Notes under the pieces: model-generated | Databases searched by the model: none | Seen by the model: the letters and a program-made list of their open reading frames with translations, nothing else | What the model was told of the DNA's origin: nothing | Shown here: in pieces, positions 13,343 to 33,106 of the stretch | Layout of the letters: each line of letters begins with the position of its first letter | Position numbering within the stretch: position 1 is the first letter of the stretch | Assembly (NCBI GenBank): GCA_009694125.1 | Contig: SHVT01000009.1 | Coordinates: 1-39,464, forward strand | DNA from: Rhodospirillaceae bacterium | Lineage (GTDB): Bacteria > Pseudomonadota > Alphaproteobacteria > CACIAM-22H2 | Reading direction: 5' to 3' | Length of the DNA: 39,464 bases | Program-made: the position numbers and the translations under genes

Positions 13343-14452
13343 ATGAAAAGCGACTCCCCCGCCATCGCCGCGCCGGCCGCACAGGGCGAACCACCCCGTC
13401 TGGCGGCCGAGATCAAGATCGCCACCGGGTTGGTGCCTGGTTTCGGCGGCCTCGTCTTCCTTGCCGTCGCCTCGGTCCTGGCGCTTGGAATCTGGAGCGC
13501 CCGCACCAATACCATCGACCTGCTGCGCGACAAATCCGAGGCCGCGAGCCAGCAGATCGTCAGCGTGATCGACCAATATCTGCGGCCGGTGGAGAATCAG
13601 CTTACCCACCTGGCCCGCCAGATCGAGGCCGGCGCCATCACCTTCGAGGCTGGCGATCTCGGCAAATATTTCGCCGGCGCCCTGTCGGCGACTCCCGAGG
13701 TGCGTTCGCTCGTACTCATTGGCGCGGACAATTCCATGCTGCGCGCCCTTCGCCATCCAACGGGAGTCGCTCTGGACGTCATCGACGTGCGCGCGATGCC
13801 GGTCATCAGCAATGCCATGGACTCGGGGCGGAACAGAACGGGACTGTATTGGGCGGAAATCGTGTTGCCGGAAACCGCCGATCAGGTGTTGGTCAATGTT
13901 CGCCATCCGGCTCGCATCGACGGCAATTATGTCGGGCTATTGGTCGCCACCGTCCAGGTGGACCAGTTTTCGCGGATTCTCGGCGACACCGCGCGCACCC
14001 TCAAGGGCACGGCCTTCATCCTTTACGACCATCACATGGTCCTCGCCCATCCCTTTCTTCAGGCTCGCCGGCCGCCGCGCGGCGAGAATTTGCTCCCCAC
14101 GATCGCGGAGGTTGGGGATCCGGTTCTTCTGGCTTTTGACCGCCCGCAGAATTTGAGCGTGCTCGATCGTGACTTCACCGAAAAGACCGGCATTCGGCTG
14201 GCCGAATCCGGCGGCACTCAATACGCCATGTTGTCGCGAGTCTTGGACCGCTACAGCGACAAACCCCGGGAAGTCGGCGTCTATTTCGCCGCCACAGACA
14301 TCACCGACGAACTGACACGCCTGCGCTGGGCGGCGATCGCGGGAATCGCGGTTCTGCTCGTTTCGTTGCTGGTCGCTTATGGCTATTCCCGATATTTGAC
14401 CGTGCCTCTGATCCGGCTTTCGATCGCGGCGCGGCGGGTGAGCGATCTGTAG
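13343..14452 (+). CDS. Sensor adenylate cyclase, N-terminal part (interrupted by in-frame TAG)
   Basis: This 369-residue segment forms the sensor half of a membrane adenylate cyclase. It has a transmembrane helix near residues 32-53, an extracytoplasmic Cache-like domain (about 55-330; IDQYLRPVENQLTHLARQI, LYWAEIVLPE, VNVRHPARIDG), a second helix near 332-352, and the first half of a HAMP linker (VPLIRLSIAARRVSDL). It then meets TAG at 14450-14452. The same frame continues directly with the second half of HAMP and the catalytic domain, so this is one gene with a single nonsense codon and no frameshift. A GAG or CAG to TAG change would restore it. As it stands this product would lack catalysis. 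Confidence 0.85.
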   Translation: MKSDSPAIAAPAAQGEPPRLAAEIKIATGLVPGFGGLVFLAVASVLALGIWSARTNTIDLLRDKSEAASQQIVSVIDQYLRPVENQLTHLARQIEAGAITFEAGDLGKYFAGALSATPEVRSLVLIGADNSMLRALRHPTGVALDVIDVRAMPVISNAMDSGRNRTGLYWAEIVLPETADQVLVNVRHPARIDGNYVGLLVATVQVDQFSRILGDTARTLKGTAFILYDHHMVLAHPFLQARRPPRGENLLPTIAEVGDPVLLAFDRPQNLSVLDRDFTEKTGIRLAESGGTQYAMLSRVLDRYSDKPREVGVYFAATDITDELTRLRWAAIAGIAVLLVSLLVAYGYSRYLTVPLIRLSIAARRVSDL

Positions 14453-14470
14453 CTGGATACGGTCGAAAGG

Positions 14471-15184
14471 TTGCCCCGCACCCTGTTCGTGGAGCTGAAC
14501 GCCGCGGCCCAGGCCTTCAACGCCATGGTCGTCGGGCTGCGTTGGTTCGAGACCTACGTCCCCAGGAAATTGGTGCAGCGACTGGTCGGCCATGGCGAAT
14601 GGGACGCGGCGAAGGGTGCGATGCCGTCGAAGGAACGCACCGTCACGGTGATGTTCGCCGACATCGCCGGGTTCACCACGATGGCCGAAAAACTCCCGGC
14701 GCCGGAAGTCGCGGCGCTGCTCAACCGGCATTTCGGGCTGGTCACCGCCTGCATCGAGGCCGAAGGCGGCACCGTGGACAAATTCATCGGCGATGCGGTC
14801 ATGGCCTTTTGGGGCGCGCCCGAGAAACAGAAAGACCATGCCGCCCGTGGCTGTCGCGCGGCGCTGGCCATCGCCGAGGCCATGAGGCGCGAGGGCGGGA
14901 CCTTGGGCATTCGCATCGGCCTGCATTCGGGTGACGTCGTCGTTGGCAATATCGGCGCGCCCGGCCGCGTCAACTACACCATCGTCGGCGACACGGTGAA
15001 CACCGCGAACCGGTTGGAGCAGCTCGGCAAGTCCATCGATAATGCCGGCAACGTCGTGGTCGTGATGAGCGGGGTCACGCGGCAGGCCTCAAAGTTCGAT
15101 CTTCCCGTCAAATCCATCGGCCGGGTGGACGTGCGCGGTCGCCAGGGCCAGATCGAGGCCTTCTACGTCGATTTCCGTTCGTAG
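14471..15184 (+). CDS. Sensor adenylate cyclase, catalytic C-terminal part
   Basis: This 237-residue part continues the upstream sensor in the same frame after the TAG. It holds the end of HAMP (LFVELNAAAQAFNAMV), a linker (FETYVPRKLVQRLVG), and a class III cyclase domain. Metal-binding Asp is in VMFADIAGFTTM, the second Asp in FIGDAVMAFWG, the adenine-recognising Lys in TVDKFIGD, and the transition-state Asn/Arg in VGDTVNTANRLE. Specificity residues favour ATP, so cAMP is the expected product. It could be made separately from TTG 14471 or ATG 14524, which would give a soluble cyclase, or by stop readthrough. Its end overlaps the convergent cbiG-cobJ gene by 22 bases. Confidence 0.85.
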   Translation: MPRTLFVELNAAAQAFNAMVVGLRWFETYVPRKLVQRLVGHGEWDAAKGAMPSKERTVTVMFADIAGFTTMAEKLPAPEVAALLNRHFGLVTACIEAEGGTVDKFIGDAVMAFWGAPEKQKDHAARGCRAALAIAEAMRREGGTLGIRIGLHSGDVVVGNIGAPGRVNYTIVGDTVNTANRLEQLGKSIDNAGNVVVVMSGVTRQASKFDLPVKSIGRVDVRGRQGQIEAFYVDFRS

Positions 15185-24744: not shown

Positions 24745-25356
24745 TCAAAACTCGACCCCCTTCTGCGCCTTGATTCCATCGCGAAACGGATGTTTGACCA
24801 AGGTCATTTCGGTGACGAGATCGGCCAGATCGATCAATTCGGGCGCGGCGTTGCGGCCGGTGACAACGACGTGCTGCCCCGGCGGCCGCGACCGGAACAC
24901 ATCCAGGACTTCGGTCAGGGGCAGATAGCCATAACGCAGCGCGACGTTCAACTCGTCGAGAATCACCATATCGTAACTGGAATCGGCGATCATCGACTTG
25001 GCCATGTCCCAGGCCCGGCGCGCTGCGGCGATGTCGCGTTCGCGATCCTGGGTTTCCCAGGTGAAGCCGTCCCCCATCGCGCGGATGGTCACCAACTCGG
25101 CGAAATGTTCCAGGGCATCGCGCTCGCCGCAATTCCACGCGCCCTTGATGAATTGCACGATGCCGATTCGCATCCCATGACCGATGGAGCGCAAGGCCAT
25201 GCCGAAGGCCGCGGTCGATTTGCCCTTGCCCTTGCCGGTATGGACGATAAGCAGGCCGCGTTGTCCGGTTTTGGTCGCCATCATGCGGTCGCGCGCCGCC
25301 TTGATCCGCGCCATCTTCTCGCGATGGAGGGTGTTTTCATCGGCTAGGTTTGACAT
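24745..25356 (-). CDS. cobO: Cob(I)yrinic acid a,c-diamide adenosyltransferase
   Basis: This 203-residue CobO/BtuR-type adenosyltransferase moves the 5'-deoxyadenosyl group of ATP to Co(I) of the corrinoid. Seen are an unusual P-loop in [18 protein letters not shown] (residues 35-52), then [35 protein letters not shown], and [22 protein letters not shown]. The N-terminal helix ([16 protein letters not shown]) is typical of the family. It heads the cobO-SYLF-cobQ operon and is divergent from the zinc-finger gene at 25428, from which 71 bases separate it. Confidence 0.95.
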
Positions 25357-25427
25357 TTCAGTATCGGCCTGCTCCGTTGATGCAAGGTTGTAATGGATTT
25401 GTTGCTTCTAAGACGGCCGCTGCCGCA

Positions 25428-26342
25428 ATGACGGACGAAATTCGCGAAGTACGGGCGATTTGTGCGCTGTGCAGAAAGCCTGCAGAGCTACGAGAAAGCC
25501 ACATCATCCCCACCTTCGTTTATCGATGGCTGAAGGATACATCTTTTACCGGCTACTTGCGCGCCGGTACGAATGTAAAGAAGCGCGTTCAGGATGGCCT
25601 CAAGAGAAAGCTTTTGTGCGCCAAATGTGAAGTGCTCCTCAATCCATGGGAGACGGCACTCGCCTCGCAAATCTTTCATCCCTATAACGCCAATAACGCT
25701 TTCAGCGGCAGCTACGGCGAGTGGATGCTTAAATTCTGCACGTCTGTTTCATGGCGTGCTCTGCGATTTTTCCTAGATGAAGGAGGAAGCTCTCAGCTAA
25801 CCAATGATCAAATCACGGCAGCAAATAAGGCTCTTGAGCGTTGGAGGGCGGTCATATTTGGTGAAATTGAACATCCGGGTGTCTATGAGCAGCACATCTT
25901 ACCCTTGAGCGCCATTGGCACGACCTCGATTGCCGATCTTCCTAACAACATGAATCGATATCTCATGAGAGGCGTCGAACTGGATTTGCCGCGTTCGGAA
26001 AAGTCGATGTTCACCTACGTCAAAATGGGCCGCTTTGCGGTCTTCGGCATTATTTCGCCCACTAAAATACGGTGGAAGGGAACCCGCGTCAGTGTAAGGA
26101 ATGGACAGATCGGCCCCTCTCAATTCATTTTACCTCAACAATTAGTCGAATACCTCAAAGACCGAGCTCGAAAAATGGCCGACCTAATGAAGGAAATTCC
26201 AACGGATCAGGCGAATGAGATTGAAAGGAGCATCTTGCACGACCGAGGGCGGGCCGTCGCTACCGACCAGTTCGCCGCGATGCTCGAAGATGAGCGTATG
26301 TTTGGTAGAGACGCGATCCTGAGAAAGACCACGGAAAGCTGA
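25428..26342 (+). CDS. Unknown protein with paired CxxC zinc-binding motifs
   Basis: This 304-residue protein has two CxxC pairs that probably form one zinc site: Cys12/Cys15 (ICALCRKP) and Cys64/Cys67 (LLCAKCEVLLNPWE), with a conserved-looking ESHIIPTFVYRWLK between them. The C-x2-C...SHIIP layout resembles an HNH-type zinc core, but I do not see a full HNH nuclease signature. Similar hypothetical proteins exist in many bacteria as far as I recall, without a known role. Base composition is visibly more AT-rich than all neighbours and codon use is relaxed, which suggests recent acquisition. ATG 25428 starts the conserved part; an upstream in-frame TTG at 25350 overlaps cobO. It interrupts the cobalamin region. 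Confidence 0.75.
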   Translation: MTDEIREVRAICALCRKPAELRESHIIPTFVYRWLKDTSFTGYLRAGTNVKKRVQDGLKRKLLCAKCEVLLNPWETALASQIFHPYNANNAFSGSYGEWMLKFCTSVSWRALRFFLDEGGSSQLTNDQITAANKALERWRAVIFGEIEHPGVYEQHILPLSAIGTTSIADLPNNMNRYLMRGVELDLPRSEKSMFTYVKMGRFAVFGIISPTKIRWKGTRVSVRNGQIGPSQFILPQQLVEYLKDRARKMADLMKEIPTDQANEIERSILHDRGRAVATDQFAAMLEDERMFGRDAILRKTTES

Positions 26343-27448: not shown

Positions 27449-27547
27449 GCGTTTTCCCGGCAACACACCTATAATCGCCGGCCGCGGATTTCAGCGAAAG
27501 GCGATGAAAACGTCGCCGCTTCGTCACCCGATGGTCCCCCCCCCCGT

Positions 27548-27599
27548 GCTGTGGGCGCGTTCGACGTGACAGAGTTGTGGGCGCGTTCGACGTGACAGA
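27548..27599. repeat. 26-bp tandem direct repeat, two copies
   Basis: Two adjoining 26-base units (27548-27573 and 27574-27599) differ at one base. Each contains TGTGGGCGCGTT followed by CGACGTGACAGA. They lie in a 305-base gene-free stretch (27449-27753) upstream of the redox operon and about 30 bases before a candidate promoter, so they could be activator or repressor sites. Just before them is a run of eight to nine C bases. I see no match to known FNR or CRP consensus sites. Confidence 0.8.
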
Positions 27600-27753: not shown

Positions 27754-30153
27754 ATGGCCGAACACTATGCGATCGCGATTGTCGGATCGGGCCCGGCCGG
27801 ATTAAGCGCGGCGGGACGCGCGGCCAAGCGCGGCGCGTCTTACGTCCTGCTTGAACGCACGACCCATCTCTCCGATACGATCTACAAGTATCAGAAGAAA
27901 AAACACGTCATGGCGACGCCGGAAGTCCTGCCCCTGCGCAGCGATCTTCAATTCAAGGAAGGCTCGCGCGAAACCATCCTGGGTTCCTGGGACAAAAGCA
28001 CCGGCGATTTGAAATTCAACCTGCGCCAGAACGCCGATGTCGCAGGCATCAAGAAGGACGGCGCGATTTTCACGATCACGCTGGCCAACAAACAAACGCT
28101 TACCGCCGATGCCGTCGTGCTCGCCATTGGGTTGCAGGGCAATATCCGCACTCTGGGCGTACCCGGCGAAACCGGCCCGAACGCCCAGTACCAGCTCGAC
28201 GATCCCGAAGAATACAAGAACGAAACCATCGTTGTAATCGGCGCTGGCGACGCCGGGCTCGAAAACGCCATCGCGCTCGCCGTCCAGAACGAGGTCATCG
28301 TCGTCAACGTCATGGGCGATTTCGCACGCGCCAAGGCGGGCAACGTCGCGCTGATCGAATCGGCCATCAAGGATGGCCGCATCCAGTGTTATTTCAATAC
28401 CAAGGTCATTAAGGTCGAGACCGATCCCAGCGCCATTTTTCTGAAAACGCCCGAGGGTGAGGCGGTGGTCAAGTGCCACCGGGTCATCGCCCGTATCGGC
28501 GCCATGCCGCCGCGCAAATTCGTCGAAGCCTGCGGTATCGTCTTTCCCAACGCCGATCCCGCCTCGGTTCCAGGGGTCAGCGACAGCTACGAATCGAACG
28601 TGAAGGGGCTGTACATCATCGGCGCGCTCGCCGGATACCCCCTGATCAAACACTGCATGAACCAGGGCTACGAGGTGATCGAATACATCCTTGGGCATGA
28701 GGTGAAGCCGGCGGACGAGCCGCTGCTCGAAGCAAAACTCACCGGGCTGCAAGGGGTGACGGTCTCGCAGTTCCTGGAAGGCGTGCAACAGCGCGTGCCG
28801 ATGTTCTCGGCGCTGACCAAACTGCAGCTTCGCGAATTCCTACTCGATAGCGACGTGCACGCGCCCAAAAAGGGCGAGATCGTTTTCAAGCACAACGATT
28901 ATTCCGACAGCTTCTATTCGATCCTGTCGGGGTCGGTCGATGTCCAGGTCAGCGCCGAAAACCCGGCGATCAAGGTGACGCTGAAGACCGGCGAATTCTT
29001 CGGCGAGATGGGTTTGATCTCCGGCCGCCGGCGCACAGCGACGGTGGTGGCGGGCGCCGATTGCGTGTTGATCGAGACGCCGCGCCGGCAGGTCATCAAA
29101 CTGACCCGTTCGATCGCCGCCGCCAAACGCGTGCTCGACGAGACGGCCACGATCCGCCAGGTTCAAACCCATCTGGCGCCGCAGGTCTCCAAGCGCGACC
29201 TTGTCGATGTCGTGCGCACCGCCACGATCCAGTCCTTCAGCGCCGGCGACGTGCTGATCAAGGAAGGCGATATCGGCGACAACGTCTATTTGATCCGCAG
29301 CGGGTCGGTGACCGTGTCGCGCAACCTGGGCGGCCGCGACGTGGTTTTGTCCTATGTCCCGGCTGGCCATTACGTCGGCGAAATGGCGTTGCTGACCAAA
29401 AGTCCGCGCACGGCCACGGTGCGGGCGGCGGTGGCGACGGAGGTCATCAAGCTCGACGGCGGCGCCTTCCGCGACCTGCTCGATCGCTCGCCGGAGTTGC
29501 GCGTCGAGGTCGAAAGTCGGTTCCAGGCGCGGCTTGTCGAAAACGCCCGCATGGAAGGCCGGCCCGACCATTCAAATCTGATGCAGTTCCTGCTCGACCA
29601 AGGTTTGGGCGAGGCGACCGACGTACTGCTGATCGACGAAACGCTGTGCGTGCGGTGCGACAATTGCGAAAAAGCCTGCGCCGAGACCCATCACGGTGTG
29701 TCGCGGCTGGATCGCGAAGCCGGCCCGACCTATGCCTCGATCCATGTGCCGACCTCGTGCCGGCATTGCGAACACCCGCATTGCATGTCCGATTGCCCGG
29801 CCGACGCCATCCACCGTTCGCCCAACGGCGAGGTGTTCATCGACGAAAAATGCATCGGCTGCGGCAATTGCGAGCGCAACTGTCCCTATCACGTCATCCA
29901 CATGTCGGCGGAGCCGCCGGCCAAGCCGGGCTTGCTCGCCTGGATGTTGTTCGGGCTGGGCCACGGGCCCGGCGAGGATTGGGAAGCCACCCACGGCAAG
30001 AAAAAAGACCCGAACAAACGCAAAATGGCGGTGAAATGCGACATGTGCAAAGGCATCGAAGGCGGCCCGTCCTGCGTGCGGGCTTGTCCGACCGGCGCCG
30101 CCATTCGCGTCAGCCCGGAGGAGTTCTTCTCGCTGTCTAACCGGGGACTTTGA
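27754..30153 (+). CDS. FAD/NAD oxidoreductase with two cNMP-binding domains and four [4Fe-4S] motifs
   Basis: This 799-residue soluble protein has three modules. Residues 1-325 are a thioredoxin-reductase-like flavoprotein: FAD motif GSGPAG (11-16), NAD(P) motif GAGDAG (163-168), and the late GLYIIGALAGYPLIKHC; no redox CxxC of true thioredoxin reductases is seen. Residues 351-600 are two cyclic-nucleotide-binding domains with phosphate-cassette motifs FGEMGLISGRRRTATV (near 413) and VGEMALLTKSPRTATV (near 538). Residues 625-799 form a DmsB/NrfC-like ferredoxin domain with 16 cysteines in four clusters starting at Cys632, Cys669, Cys700 and Cys762. No export signal is seen, so it is cytoplasmic. 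It likely passes electrons between NAD(P)H and the membrane partner encoded next, under cAMP or cGMP control (inference). Confidence 0.92.
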   Translation: MAEHYAIAIVGSGPAGLSAAGRAAKRGASYVLLERTTHLSDTIYKYQKKKHVMATPEVLPLRSDLQFKEGSRETILGSWDKSTGDLKFNLRQNADVAGIKKDGAIFTITLANKQTLTADAVVLAIGLQGNIRTLGVPGETGPNAQYQLDDPEEYKNETIVVIGAGDAGLENAIALAVQNEVIVVNVMGDFARAKAGNVALIESAIKDGRIQCYFNTKVIKVETDPSAIFLKTPEGEAVVKCHRVIARIGAMPPRKFVEACGIVFPNADPASVPGVSDSYESNVKGLYIIGALAGYPLIKHCMNQGYEVIEYILGHEVKPADEPLLEAKLTGLQGVTVSQFLEGVQQRVPMFSALTKLQLREFLLDSDVHAPKKGEIVFKHNDYSDSFYSILSGSVDVQVSAENPAIKVTLKTGEFFGEMGLISGRRRTATVVAGADCVLIETPRRQVIKLTRSIAAAKRVLDETATIRQVQTHLAPQVSKRDLVDVVRTATIQSFSAGDVLIKEGDIGDNVYLIRSGSVTVSRNLGGRDVVLSYVPAGHYVGEMALLTKSPRTATVRAAVATEVIKLDGGAFRDLLDRSPELRVEVESRFQARLVENARMEGRPDHSNLMQFLLDQGLGEATDVLLIDETLCVRCDNCEKACAETHHGVSRLDREAGPTYASIHVPTSCRHCEHPHCMSDCPADAIHRSPNGEVFIDEKCIGCGNCERNCPYHVIHMSAEPPAKPGLLAWMLFGLGHGPGEDWEATHGKKKDPNKRKMAVKCDMCKGIEGGPSCVRACPTGAAIRVSPEEFFSLSNRGL

Positions 30154-30176
30154 GGTCGGCCAGCAGCCAAAAGACG

Positions 30177-31007
30177 ATGCATCAATCCTATCTCGTCTAT
30201 CGCAACTTCCGGTATCTGAAGGTGGCCGTCCTGGGCGCGCTAGCGGCCGCGATCGTCTATGGTGCCCACAGCCCAATGGATCCGCCCAATGGCGGGACCT
30301 GGCTCGGCTATGTGTTGGGCACGATCGGCGCGGTATTGATCCTATGGCTGATGTGGTTCGGCGTCCGCAAACGGCGGTACAATCGGGGGCCGACGAAACT
30401 TCAGGGCTGGCTTTCGGCTCATGTTTATCTCGGTCTGGCCCTGATCGTCGTGGCCACGCTGCATACCGGGTTCCAGTTCGGCTGGAACGTGCATACGCTT
30501 GCCTACACTTTGATGATGCTGGTCATCCTGTCGGGCGTGTTCGGCGTGTTTTTCTACCAGCGGTATCCGGCCCTGATGACACAGAACCGCGGCGGGCTGA
30601 CGCTGACCGAGATTTTCACGCGCATCGCCGCGCTCGATACCGAAAGCCGCGAGGTTTCCATGGGACTGCCCGACGAGATCACGCGGGCGGTACTCGATTC
30701 CGGCGGCAACACTCGGATCGGCGGGTCGGTGTGGCGTCAGCTTTCCGGTCGCGATCCCAACTGCCCGACGGCGCGGGCGCTGGCCAGGATCAAACAACTC
30801 GCGACCAAAGTCTCGGTCGAAGACGCCGTCGCCGTGCGCAAATTGCTGACCTTGTTGAGCCGCAAGGACGATCTCGTCGGTCGGGCGCGGCGCGACGTGC
30901 AATACCGGGCTTTTCTGGAAATTTGGCTGATGTTCCACGTGCCGTTGTCGGTCGGCCTTTTGGCCGCGCTGACGGCTCACGTCTTCTCTGTTTTCTTCTA
31001 CTGGTAA
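30177..31007 (+). CDS. Membrane dihaem cytochrome b-like protein
   Basis: This 276-residue protein has five predicted transmembrane helices (about 14-30, 41-62, 77-96, 105-125 and 254-275) and a soluble loop of some 125 residues between helices four and five. Two exact HX13H pairs, His82/His96 in helix 3 and His254/His268 in helix 5, have the spacing of bis-histidine dihaem b cytochromes, and the helices run parallel so the pairs would match up. His106 is a further candidate. It should carry electrons across the membrane between the Fe-S protein and the decahaem protein. Start ATG 30177; an in-frame TTG at 30150 overlaps the upstream stop (TTGA) and could serve as a coupled start. Confidence 0.85.
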   Translation: MHQSYLVYRNFRYLKVAVLGALAAAIVYGAHSPMDPPNGGTWLGYVLGTIGAVLILWLMWFGVRKRRYNRGPTKLQGWLSAHVYLGLALIVVATLHTGFQFGWNVHTLAYTLMMLVILSGVFGVFFYQRYPALMTQNRGGLTLTEIFTRIAALDTESREVSMGLPDEITRAVLDSGGNTRIGGSVWRQLSGRDPNCPTARALARIKQLATKVSVEDAVAVRKLLTLLSRKDDLVGRARRDVQYRAFLEIWLMFHVPLSVGLLAALTAHVFSVFFYW

Positions 31008-31031
31008 CGATTTCGGAGCGGGAGTAATACC

Positions 31032-32750
31032 GTGCTTGTCCAGGTCGGCTATCTGACTCGGCGCGGCAATCGTGGCGTTTCCCGGCGCGACCAAGACGCC
31101 ACCGTGGAATTCATTCGCATCGGCCGCGGCACGAAGAACGAGGTCTATCTTCCCGATCCGCGGGTCGCGCTCGACCACGTCGAAATACATGTGCGCGACG
31201 GCCAGGTCTACGCCTCCGCGGTGGGCAGCAACGATCTCTCGATCAATGGCGCCGCCGCCACCTCCGGCCGCGTCCGGCCCGGCGATGCGATCGCCGTCGG
31301 TCCTTACAAGATCGAAATCGTGGAAGCGCCGCCGGGCTATGGCGTCGCGGTTACGGTCGAACTGGTGCAGCCGCTGGGCGACGATCTCGTCGAGCTGACT
31401 CAGCGCAGCCGTGCCCGCCTGGGTGATGCCGCGATCAGCAAACGTGTGTTGTCCTGGGCCGCGTTCGTCACCGTTCTCCTGCTTTTCCTGGTGCTGCCGG
31501 TCGCCGCCTTCTTCATCCCCGATATTCACAAGCGCATGACCTCCATGCCGATTTCGGCGGATAAGTCTTGGGAATCCGGCGAAATCTCCGGGGTGCACAA
31601 ATATTTCGCGAGCGATTGCACGACTTGTCACGAGCGACCCTTCATCATGGTCCAGGACCAGGCCTGCCTGACCTGCCACAGCGACATTACCCACCATGCC
31701 GACGTCAAGACGGTGCGTCTGCCGGCCTTGGAAGAGACCCGCTGCGCGGCCTGCCACAAAGAACATCAAGGCCGCCAGCCGGCGATCCAGACGGCGCAGG
31801 CCTTGTGCGACGATTGCCATGTGCGGCTGACCGCGATCGTGCCCACGACCAAACTGATCAATGTCAGCGATTTCGGTCGCGATCACCCCGAATTTCGGCC
31901 GTCGGTGGTGACCGACCCGGCGACCCGGACCCTGGCGCGGTTGCCGATCGGCGATCCGGCGCTGAAGGAAAATTCCAACCTGATCTTCCCGCACGACAAA
32001 CATTTGGTGGCCGCCGGCGTGCGTGGCCCCACCGGGTTGCAGAAAATGGTCTGCAATGATTGCCACCGCCCGGAGACCGGCGGTGTGGGCATGCGCGCGG
32101 TGAACATGGAGACCGAGTGCCGCGATTGCCACAAATTGAAGTTCGAGGCGCACGCGCTCGACCGCGAAGTGCCGCATGGCAAACCCGACGAGGTCGCCAA
32201 GGTCCTCAACGATTTCTACGGCCGCGTCGCCCTCGAAGGCGGCTTCGAGGATCCCGAAGCGCCGGCCGTCGTGCGCCGCCGTCCCGGCTCGCCCCTCGAT
32301 GAAGCGGCGCGCACCGAAGCGCTGGCCTGGGCGCGCAGCCGCGCCGATGCGACCATCGAGGTCGTTTACGGCAAGAGCATTTGCGGGAGCTGCCACGTTG
32401 TGGAGCGGACGACCAGGCTCAATGAGAGACCCAATTTCCGGGTCAAGCCGGTCCTGGTGGCGGCAACCTGGATGCCCAAGGGCAAATTCGATCACAGCAA
32501 ACACAAAAACACCGATTGCGCCGATTGCCACGCCGCGCCGAAATCCGTTGCCAGTTCCGACGTCCTGCTCCCGGGTATCGCCAATTGCCGCCGCTGCCAC
32601 GGCGGGGAGGACGTAACCGCGCTGGTGCCGTCGACCTGCGTTGCCTGCCACGTCTTCCATACCCCGGCCATGGGTCCGATGCGTCCGCGAGCCGTCGGCG
32701 CGGCCGCCAGCGGCGCGCCGGGGGTTGGCCAAACGGCCGTGCCGCGCTAG
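31032..32750 (+). CDS. FHA-domain, membrane-anchored decahaem c-type cytochrome
   Basis: This 572-residue protein starts at GTG 31032 with GGGAG upstream. Residues 1-110 form an FHA domain (FIRIGRGTKNEVYLPD, ALDHVEIHV, NDLSINGAA, GDAIAVGPYKIEIVEAP); the usual Ser before the conserved His region is not kept, so phosphothreonine binding is uncertain. One transmembrane helix lies at 139-161. The rest is periplasmic with ten CxxCH haem motifs between Cys196 and residue 540 (CTTCH, CLTCH, CAACH, CDDCH, CNDCH, CRDCH, CGSCH, CADCH, CRRCH, CVACH) and many extra His for distal ligation. The topology puts a signalling domain in the cytoplasm and a haem wire in the periplasm. It is the third gene of the redox operon, 24 bases after the cytochrome b. 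Confidence 0.93.
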   Translation: MLVQVGYLTRRGNRGVSRRDQDATVEFIRIGRGTKNEVYLPDPRVALDHVEIHVRDGQVYASAVGSNDLSINGAAATSGRVRPGDAIAVGPYKIEIVEAPPGYGVAVTVELVQPLGDDLVELTQRSRARLGDAAISKRVLSWAAFVTVLLLFLVLPVAAFFIPDIHKRMTSMPISADKSWESGEISGVHKYFASDCTTCHERPFIMVQDQACLTCHSDITHHADVKTVRLPALEETRCAACHKEHQGRQPAIQTAQALCDDCHVRLTAIVPTTKLINVSDFGRDHPEFRPSVVTDPATRTLARLPIGDPALKENSNLIFPHDKHLVAAGVRGPTGLQKMVCNDCHRPETGGVGMRAVNMETECRDCHKLKFEAHALDREVPHGKPDEVAKVLNDFYGRVALEGGFEDPEAPAVVRRRPGSPLDEAARTEALAWARSRADATIEVVYGKSICGSCHVVERTTRLNERPNFRVKPVLVAATWMPKGKFDHSKHKNTDCADCHAAPKSVASSDVLLPGIANCRRCHGGEDVTALVPSTCVACHVFHTPAMGPMRPRAVGAAASGAPGVGQTAVPR

Positions 32751-32782: not shown

Positions 32783-33106
32783 ATGGGGGATGACCGGGTG
32801 GCGCTGTTGGCGCCCGATCCAATCGGAACGCGACCGAAAGCCGGCCCGTCCAGATTTGGATTTGCCTTTTATTTCATGGCGTTGGTGCTCCTCGTTCCGG
32901 CCTCCGGCTGGGGCGAGACGTTGAGCGTCGAAGGCGCGATGCTGGCACCGCTCACCATTCGCCCTGAGACCGCCGAGATCGTTCGCGAAATCGACCTGCA
33001 AGGCGATCAGCCGCTCGCCACCTATGTCATCGCCAAACCCTGGGGCAATTTGCTGCTGCAGCGGTCGGGCTACGCCCGACGGGCCCGGGGATGCGCCTTG
33101 TCGTAG
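32783..33106 (+). CDS. Putative small exported protein ending in a palindromic repeat
   Basis: This predicted 107-residue protein has a long hydrophobic segment (FAFYFMALVLLVPASGWGE) like a signal peptide, then a short mature part (LSVEGAMLAPLTIRPETAEIV). It would be the fourth gene of the redox operon, 32 bases after the decahaem gene. The family is unknown. Its last residues (SGYARRARGCALS) are encoded by the REP-like element at 33064-33086 and by bases antisense to xerC, so the original C-terminus may be truncated. ATG 32876 is an alternative start. It could be a remnant. Confidence 0.4.
   Translation: MGDDRVALLAPDPIGTRPKAGPSRFGFAFYFMALVLLVPASGWGETLSVEGAMLAPLTIRPETAEIVREIDLQGDQPLATYVIAKPWGNLLLQRSGYARRARGCALS
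33064..33086. repeat. REP-like short palindromic element, copy 2
   Basis: TCGGGC, loop TAC, GCCCGA, then CGGGCCC: a perfect hairpin that matches the element at 27080 except for the loop. It contains the stop codon and last codons of xerC on the minus strand (ARRA then stop) and the tail of the small plus-strand gene. Confidence 0.7.

Follow-up and report, generated by a model that had tools for sequence, protein, structure and literature searches.

The locus analyzed here raises the question of what a protein that fuses an NAD(P)H reductase to two cyclic nucleotide monophosphate (cNMP)-binding domains and an iron-sulfur part does next to a membrane cytochrome and a decaheme protein. It lies in a 39,464-nucleotide stretch of Rhodospirillaceae bacterium (contig SHVT01000009.1), called the window below, to which position numbers refer; the window's genome, G000, is 75% complete, and G001 and G002 are genomes of the same genus. 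We think it probable that the three genes, G1, G2 and G3, encode the inner-membrane half of a trans-envelope electron exporter of the NADPH oxidase (NOX)-like kind. A preliminary description of this DNA had set out the architecture of the three genes, and each structural detail of it (domains, helices, motifs and the spacing of the genes) is borne out by the open reading frames (ORFs), Pfam matches and homologue alignments:

27754–30153, + strand: G1, 799 amino acids (aa); TrxR/YpdA-like FAD/NAD(P)H reductase without CxxC, cNMP domain 1, cNMP domain 2, four [4Fe-4S] motifs
27769–28668, + strand: FAD/NAD(P)-binding part of G1, residues 6–305; Pfam Pyr_redox_2/3, NCBIfam YpdA-like below the cut-off
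29002–29034, + strand: motif of cNMP pocket 1, G417-E418 ... R425-R427; G417, E418, R425, R426 and R427 in 83/83 sequences
29377–29409, + strand: motif of cNMP pocket 2, G542-E543 ... R552; 83/83
29647–30087, + strand: four [4Fe-4S] motifs of G1, C632–C778; 16 cysteines in 83/83; Fer4_11, HycB/HydN-like
30177–31007, + strand: G2, 276 aa; predicted five-helix di-heme b inner-membrane protein
31032–32750, + strand: G3, 572 aa; cytoplasmic FHA domain, one transmembrane (TM) helix, periplasmic decaheme domain
31113–31319, + strand: FHA domain of G3, residues 28–96; Pfam FHA 3.7e-6, above the cut-off; Gly-Arg invariant, phospho-contact Ser mostly Ala
31428–31532, + strand: single TM helix region of G3, residues 133–167; one strong segment by hydropathy
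31596–32660, + strand: ten-heme part of G3; CxxCH motifs and invariant distal His, ten of each

The gaps are 23 bases between G1 and G2 and 24 bases between G2 and G3. The listed frame of G2 opens at TTG 30150, and the ATG at 30177 agrees with the homologues; G3 starts at GTG 31032.

We scanned one genome per species for homologues and found at least 80 loci, with 55–98% identity to G1, in Alpha-, Beta- and Gammaproteobacteria. The order of the three genes, on which the preliminary description had rested its unit, is conserved, and every redox ligand is invariant: G1, G2 and G3 are adjacent in 59 of the 80 listed loci, 11 loci run into a contig end, and in 10 at least one of the two downstream genes is missing. 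Invariance of this kind across the homologues excludes chance. The idea that G3 is missing from Betaproteobacteria was rejected, since all 17 tested genomes without G3 directly after G1 carry it elsewhere (one as a short fragment only); in the GR16-43 genome it sits directly upstream of the cluster. When other Pseudomonadota were sampled evenly, 14 of 397 species (~3.5%) had G3. The distances of G1, G2, G3 and the outer-membrane barrel gene described below co-vary (Mantel r 0.82–0.94, 0/500 permutations), to which shared species history contributes. The three-gene set is widespread and apparently unstudied. Some records that bear the cluster (L092, L099, L100 and L040) are metagenome-assembled genomes titled Klebsiella pneumoniae, Bordetella parapertussis or Marinimicrobia, titles that seem doubtful for these contigs.

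Besides two cNMP_binding matches (1.4e-40) and Pyr_redox_3 (7.6e-32), G1 matches several Fer4 families, including Fer4_11 (pfam13247; 1.5e-9, 38.4 bits against a cut-off of 26.2), and its 16 Fe-S cysteines are all invariant in the 83 sequences. The FAD part holds only Cys 212, 241, 260 and 301, none of which forms a CxxC, and its score against the YpdA equivalog is 127 bits, far under the cut-off of 340. These two facts speak against a TrxR- or bacillithiol-type disulfide reductase and make a one-electron relay to the Fe-S clusters the better reading.

In G2, H82 and H96 are invariant in 65/65 sequences and H254 and H268 in all 62 complete ones, SGxxG occurs in 52/52 members, and 51 of these have two WX3HX13H motifs. 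The AlphaFold2 model (pLDDT 89) has five membrane helices and places the His pairs on TM3 and TM5. By the positive-inside rule, each of helices 3 and 5 begins on the cytoplasmic side and ends outside, which would stack the two hemes across the membrane, as in NADPH oxidases. The sole Pfam match of the window's G2 is a sub-threshold one to Ni_hydr_CYTB (3.7e-4), and Ferric_reduct is absent from the Pfam families matched by the 52 members.

Apart from FHA, G3 matches Cytochrome_C7 (2.9e-15) and Cytochrom_c3_2. All ten CxxCH motifs are invariant in its homologues, as are His 189, 222, 245, 285, 321, 324, 382, 488, 491 and 543, so that the ligands suffice for ten bis-His hemes. The suggestion that a phosphoprotein gates the system through the FHA domain did not find support. 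The Gly-Arg of the phosphate contacts is invariant (Arg in 62/62), but the position of the phospho-contact Ser is Ala in 32 and Leu in 10 of 63 sequences, with Ser not among the common residues. Because this contact is lost in most members, we read the FHA domain as a docking surface; judging by these residues, it is more likely a scaffold for G1 or G2 than a phosphothreonine switch.

The trio is real, but it is an incomplete locus. In the relatives, a larger cluster of seven to eight genes has G1-G2-G3 as its inner half, together with an outer-membrane barrel, a secreted decaheme-LVIVD protein, an HbpS-like protein and a tetraheme protein; in the window the cluster ends at 33063. The families f2 and f3 come after G3 in 40 of the 46 loci with room for them, f5 is next, and f6 is often close by. 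The f2 protein is HbpS-like and has three such stretches. The f3 model is a β barrel of about 19 strands whose best fold matches are AlgE structures (E 5.5e-16); an MtrB-like barrel was rejected, as no MtrB is among the best 50 fold matches. The f5 protein, of about 1,250–1,330 aa, has a signal-peptide-like start, ten CxxCH motifs and LVIVD repeats, and f6 has a signal-peptide-like start and four CxxCH motifs. A further neighbor family of the gene map, f7, is probably an antisense artefact of ORF calling. Type II secretion genes (GspD, GspE, GspF, prepilin peptidase) adjoin the cluster in several lineages (L080, L089, L048, L035, L024), which is circumstantial but fits export of a cytochrome to the surface.

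In the mechanism that we propose, the cytoplasmic FAD of G1 would take electrons from NAD(P)H. The four [4Fe-4S] clusters would relay them to a stacked pair of b hemes in G2, an inner one held by H82 and H254 and an outer one held by H96 and H268. From there they would enter the ten-heme periplasmic domain of the membrane-anchored G3 and, in most relatives, continue through periplasmic f6 to the barrel f3 and the secreted f5. Direction and topology would be those of an NADPH oxidase coupled to a multiheme wire. A sister system (L135, L136 and L138) bears on the cytoplasmic end of this chain. Its clusters contain homologues of the cNMP/Fe-S part of G1, with E values between 1e-35 and 1e-42, and of G2, with an E value of 1e-13 in L135 and weaker matches in L136 and L138. 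L135 also has an Hmp/BenC-type FAD-NAD-2Fe2S reductase as a gene of its own, next to the cytochromes and to homologues of G2 and of the G1 Fe-S part. That one chain is served by two unrelated NAD(P)H modules argues for NAD(P)H as its cytoplasmic end. The electron conduit put forward in the preliminary description thus gains support from the invariant cofactor ligands, the conserved gene order and the separate, non-homologous reductase of the sister system. As to direction, export takes electrons downhill in both redox and membrane potential and import takes them uphill, an established principle that we apply to the present system by inference. The data establish the gene order, the invariance of the ligands, the homology, the deletion described below and the selection on the genes; the cofactor content, the order and direction of electron flow, cNMP binding and the final acceptor are deduced from them.

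The conduit was also supposed to be gated by a cyclic nucleotide. The phosphate-binding Gly-Glu and Arg residues are kept in both pockets of all 83 sequences, and a cyclic-nucleotide phosphodiesterase (PDE)-like gene lies directly after G3 in eight loci: L022 (20158–21006), L023, L144, L147–L149, L151 and L152. These come from Sphingobium plus six other genomes within one family, with 46–65% PDE identity outside Sphingobium, and the PDE-like protein scores under the SpdA and CpdA family cut-offs. The window's genome has eleven cyclase-domain matches. Judged from these residues and neighbors, the cNMP domains would most likely be sites at which cAMP or cGMP adjusts the rate, and cyclic-nucleotide control of the conduit is plausible. 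Only tentatively do we propose an allosteric cAMP/cGMP valve, conserved in three classes of Proteobacteria, in which cyclic nucleotides would bind the electron-carrying enzyme directly and switch the flow of NAD(P)H electrons across the envelope on or off. Sphingobium and further genomes within a single family would encode the phosphodiesterase that resets such a valve alongside it. Elsewhere in the window, a gene for a Cache sensor/class III nucleotide cyclase (13343–15184, + strand) is seemingly interrupted by a stop near 14450, which leaves a dCache part (13343–14452) and a cyclase part (14471–15184) in the same frame.

What remains of the cluster beyond G3 in the window is the following:

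32783–33063, + strand: truncated fourth gene f8 with a signal-peptide-like start, recognized by alignment with intact f8 copies in L024/L105 and L104
33063/33064: deletion junction; 8.1 kb with f2, f3 and f5, present in same-genus G002, missing in the window

The order in G002 is G1-G2-G3-f8-f2-f3-f5-xerC-priA. In the window, f8, broken at 33063, joins the xerC end directly, and the frame of the remnant continues by accident to 33106. G001 has kept f8 and also lost f2–f5, with end points other than those of the window, so the outer half is deleted in two of the three genomes of this genus. Because these genes are lost in G001 too, between other end points, and f2, f3 and f5 do not turn up elsewhere in either genome, we judge misassembly behind the junction unlikely, though less surely so for G000 taken singly. 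Ratios of nonsynonymous to synonymous substitution (dN/dS) are 0.05 for G1, 0.05 for G2 and 0.13 for G3, compared to 0.16–0.18 for xerC/priA. The stronger constraint on G1–G3 means that the inner half is useful without the outer half or that the loss is very recent; neutral decay is not supported by these ratios, although a very recent loss would leave no signal. The tetraheme f6 persists in G001 (dN/dS 0.085), and in the window's genus the inner half, still under strong purifying selection, probably feeds a periplasmic acceptor. The upstream side of the locus also differs: about 5 kb of same-genus L024 (2744–7820 of that locus, including a GspD secretin gene) is missing at 27477–27574 of the window. 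Farther upstream, an ORF at 25350–26342 (+ strand, about 305–330 aa) has no Pfam or NCBIfam match and no counterpart at this position in L024 and looks like an insertion.

Several points weigh against an electron exporter under cyclic-nucleotide control. We found no biochemical tests of any part of the system in the literature. Searches of the PDB gave no significant fold match for the G2 model (best E 0.16) and no profile match for its sequence, so we do not claim membership of the FRD/NOX family. In the sister system, two cNMP domains also precede the Fe-S part, but pocket 1 is intact and pocket 2 degenerate, and the domains may therefore be partly structural. The genes f2, f3 and f5 were found nowhere in the 75%-complete G000 or in G001, and f6 was not found in G000. 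Finally, 34 of the 52 G2 members have weak Ni_hydr_CYTB matches, which leaves room for a quinone-linked unit. Here the quinone pool would give electrons to G2 or take them from it, as with HyaC and cytochrome b of bc1, and G1 and G3 would be joined via quinol in an NAD(P)H:quinone or quinol:cytochrome oxidoreductase. HyaC has one HX13H-type pair, which weighs against this comparison. A fused NAD(P)H-FAD-Fe-S input beside a decaheme output requires no quinone. A quinone-active cytochrome b was proposed for the inner-membrane proteins of the predicted PCC3 and PCC4 systems (He et al., 2017; PMC5566968), but the same paper names two HX13H pairs on TM3 and TM5 as the FRD/NOX pattern, and we consider the quinone-linked unit unlikely.

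The chain could also run inward, so that a metal, mineral or other donor outside or in the periplasm is oxidized to make NAD(P)H. Relatives of the architecture, PCC3 and PCC4, are found in iron oxidizers and were modeled as uptake routes (PMC5566968), and a 10-CXXCH FHA protein is listed for 27 iron-oxidizing Gallionellaceae (PMC10734462). Inward flow would, however, oppose the membrane potential and usually be energetically uphill with NAD(P)H as its product, and the system lacks an energy-coupling subunit. Most hosts (Sphingobium, Lysobacterales, SAR116) are not known as metal oxidizers, and we regard uptake as improbable. Least probable of all is a redox-sensing or signaling device, in which the cNMP and FHA domains would report the redox state of the envelope in place of bulk electron transport. 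Two intact cNMP pockets, the FHA domain, the PDE gene beside the operon in one family and the persistence of the unit without outer-membrane partners in G000 and G001 are what such a sensor would explain. Against it, some 17 predicted redox centers in series exceed a sensor's needs, most relatives retain the barrel and the secreted cytochrome, and no linked transcription factor is found among the recurrent neighbor families of the cluster.

If the exporter with its cyclic-nucleotide control is real, a second messenger controls electron export at the enzyme itself and not through transcription, and NAD(P)H pools are linked to outer-membrane redox chemistry in a way that bypasses the quinone pool. 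The genes occur in about 3.5% of sampled Pseudomonadota species, including culturable aerobes not regarded as electroactive, apparently without any experiment on them. The conduit would also supply a testable input for PCC4-type clusters, whose cytoplasmic side lacks an explanation.

How does this system compare to those already described? We found no description of the three-gene set or of its domain combination in the papers searched, where the sole trace is a table line (cluster 403 in Table 1 of PMC10734462): a 'Forkhead-associated protein' with 10 CXXCH in 27 Gallionellaceae genomes, given with no neighbors or role, whose domain combination is that of G3. The preliminary statement that no characterized system has this arrangement is therefore literally right for these papers, but the inner-membrane/Fe-S/multiheme layout resembles the predicted PCC4. 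Like FRD/NOX enzymes, the present system would lead from NAD(P)H through FAD to two stacked b hemes on TM3/TM5 and on to the outside, with two HX13H-type pairs; unlike them, it has an Fe-S relay between FAD and heme and a c-heme wire outside, and shows no sequence or fold match. With MtrCAB, MtoAB and PioAB it shares the trans-envelope multiheme logic with a barrel, whereas its predicted input is NAD(P)H, not CymA/quinol, and f3 is AlgE-type with about 19 strands compared to 26–28 in MtrB. The decaheme f5 is likewise unlike MtrA/DmsE, scoring only 14.5 bits against the DmsE family, whose cut-off is 192. PCC3 has the same inner-membrane protein signature, a porin, and extracellular and periplasmic multiheme proteins (PMC5566968, PMC10734462), but its cytochromes usually have far more hemes (medians 34 and 21), and no NAD(P)H reductase is described for it.

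The closest described system is PCC4, which was predicted computationally (PMC5566968). The inner-membrane proteins of PCC3 and PCC4 have five helices, SGxxG on TM4 and two WX3HX13H motifs on TM3/TM5, and were likened to the heme binding of FRD/NOX and cytochrome b; PCC4 adds a porin and periplasmic cytochromes with 4, 5 and 10 hemes, and in its subgroup II an Fe-S (pfam13247) gene lies upstream of the inner-membrane gene. G2 has this five-helix SGxxG/two WX3HX13H signature, the pfam13247 protein G1 is encoded directly upstream of it, and the cluster shares 10-heme and 4-heme cytochromes and a redox gene upstream of the tetraheme gene. As for the porin, the relatives have the AlgE-like barrel f3, and neither the window nor the rest of its genome has one. 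The main text of PMC5566968 makes no mention of cNMP domains. The sister clusters L135, L136 and L138 have a PCC4-like gene content, with homologues of the cNMP/Fe-S part of G1, of G2 and of f6. In the present cluster, by contrast, the FAD/NAD(P)H part is of a different family and fused to the cNMP-Fe-S protein in G1, the decaheme G3 carries an FHA domain, the partner is HbpS-like, the barrel is AlgE-like, the third cytochrome is a 10-heme LVIVD protein, and no pentaheme recurs. Given the missing pentaheme, the FHA, LVIVD and HbpS-like parts and the fused FAD, we class the cluster as a variant of PCC4 and not as a member.

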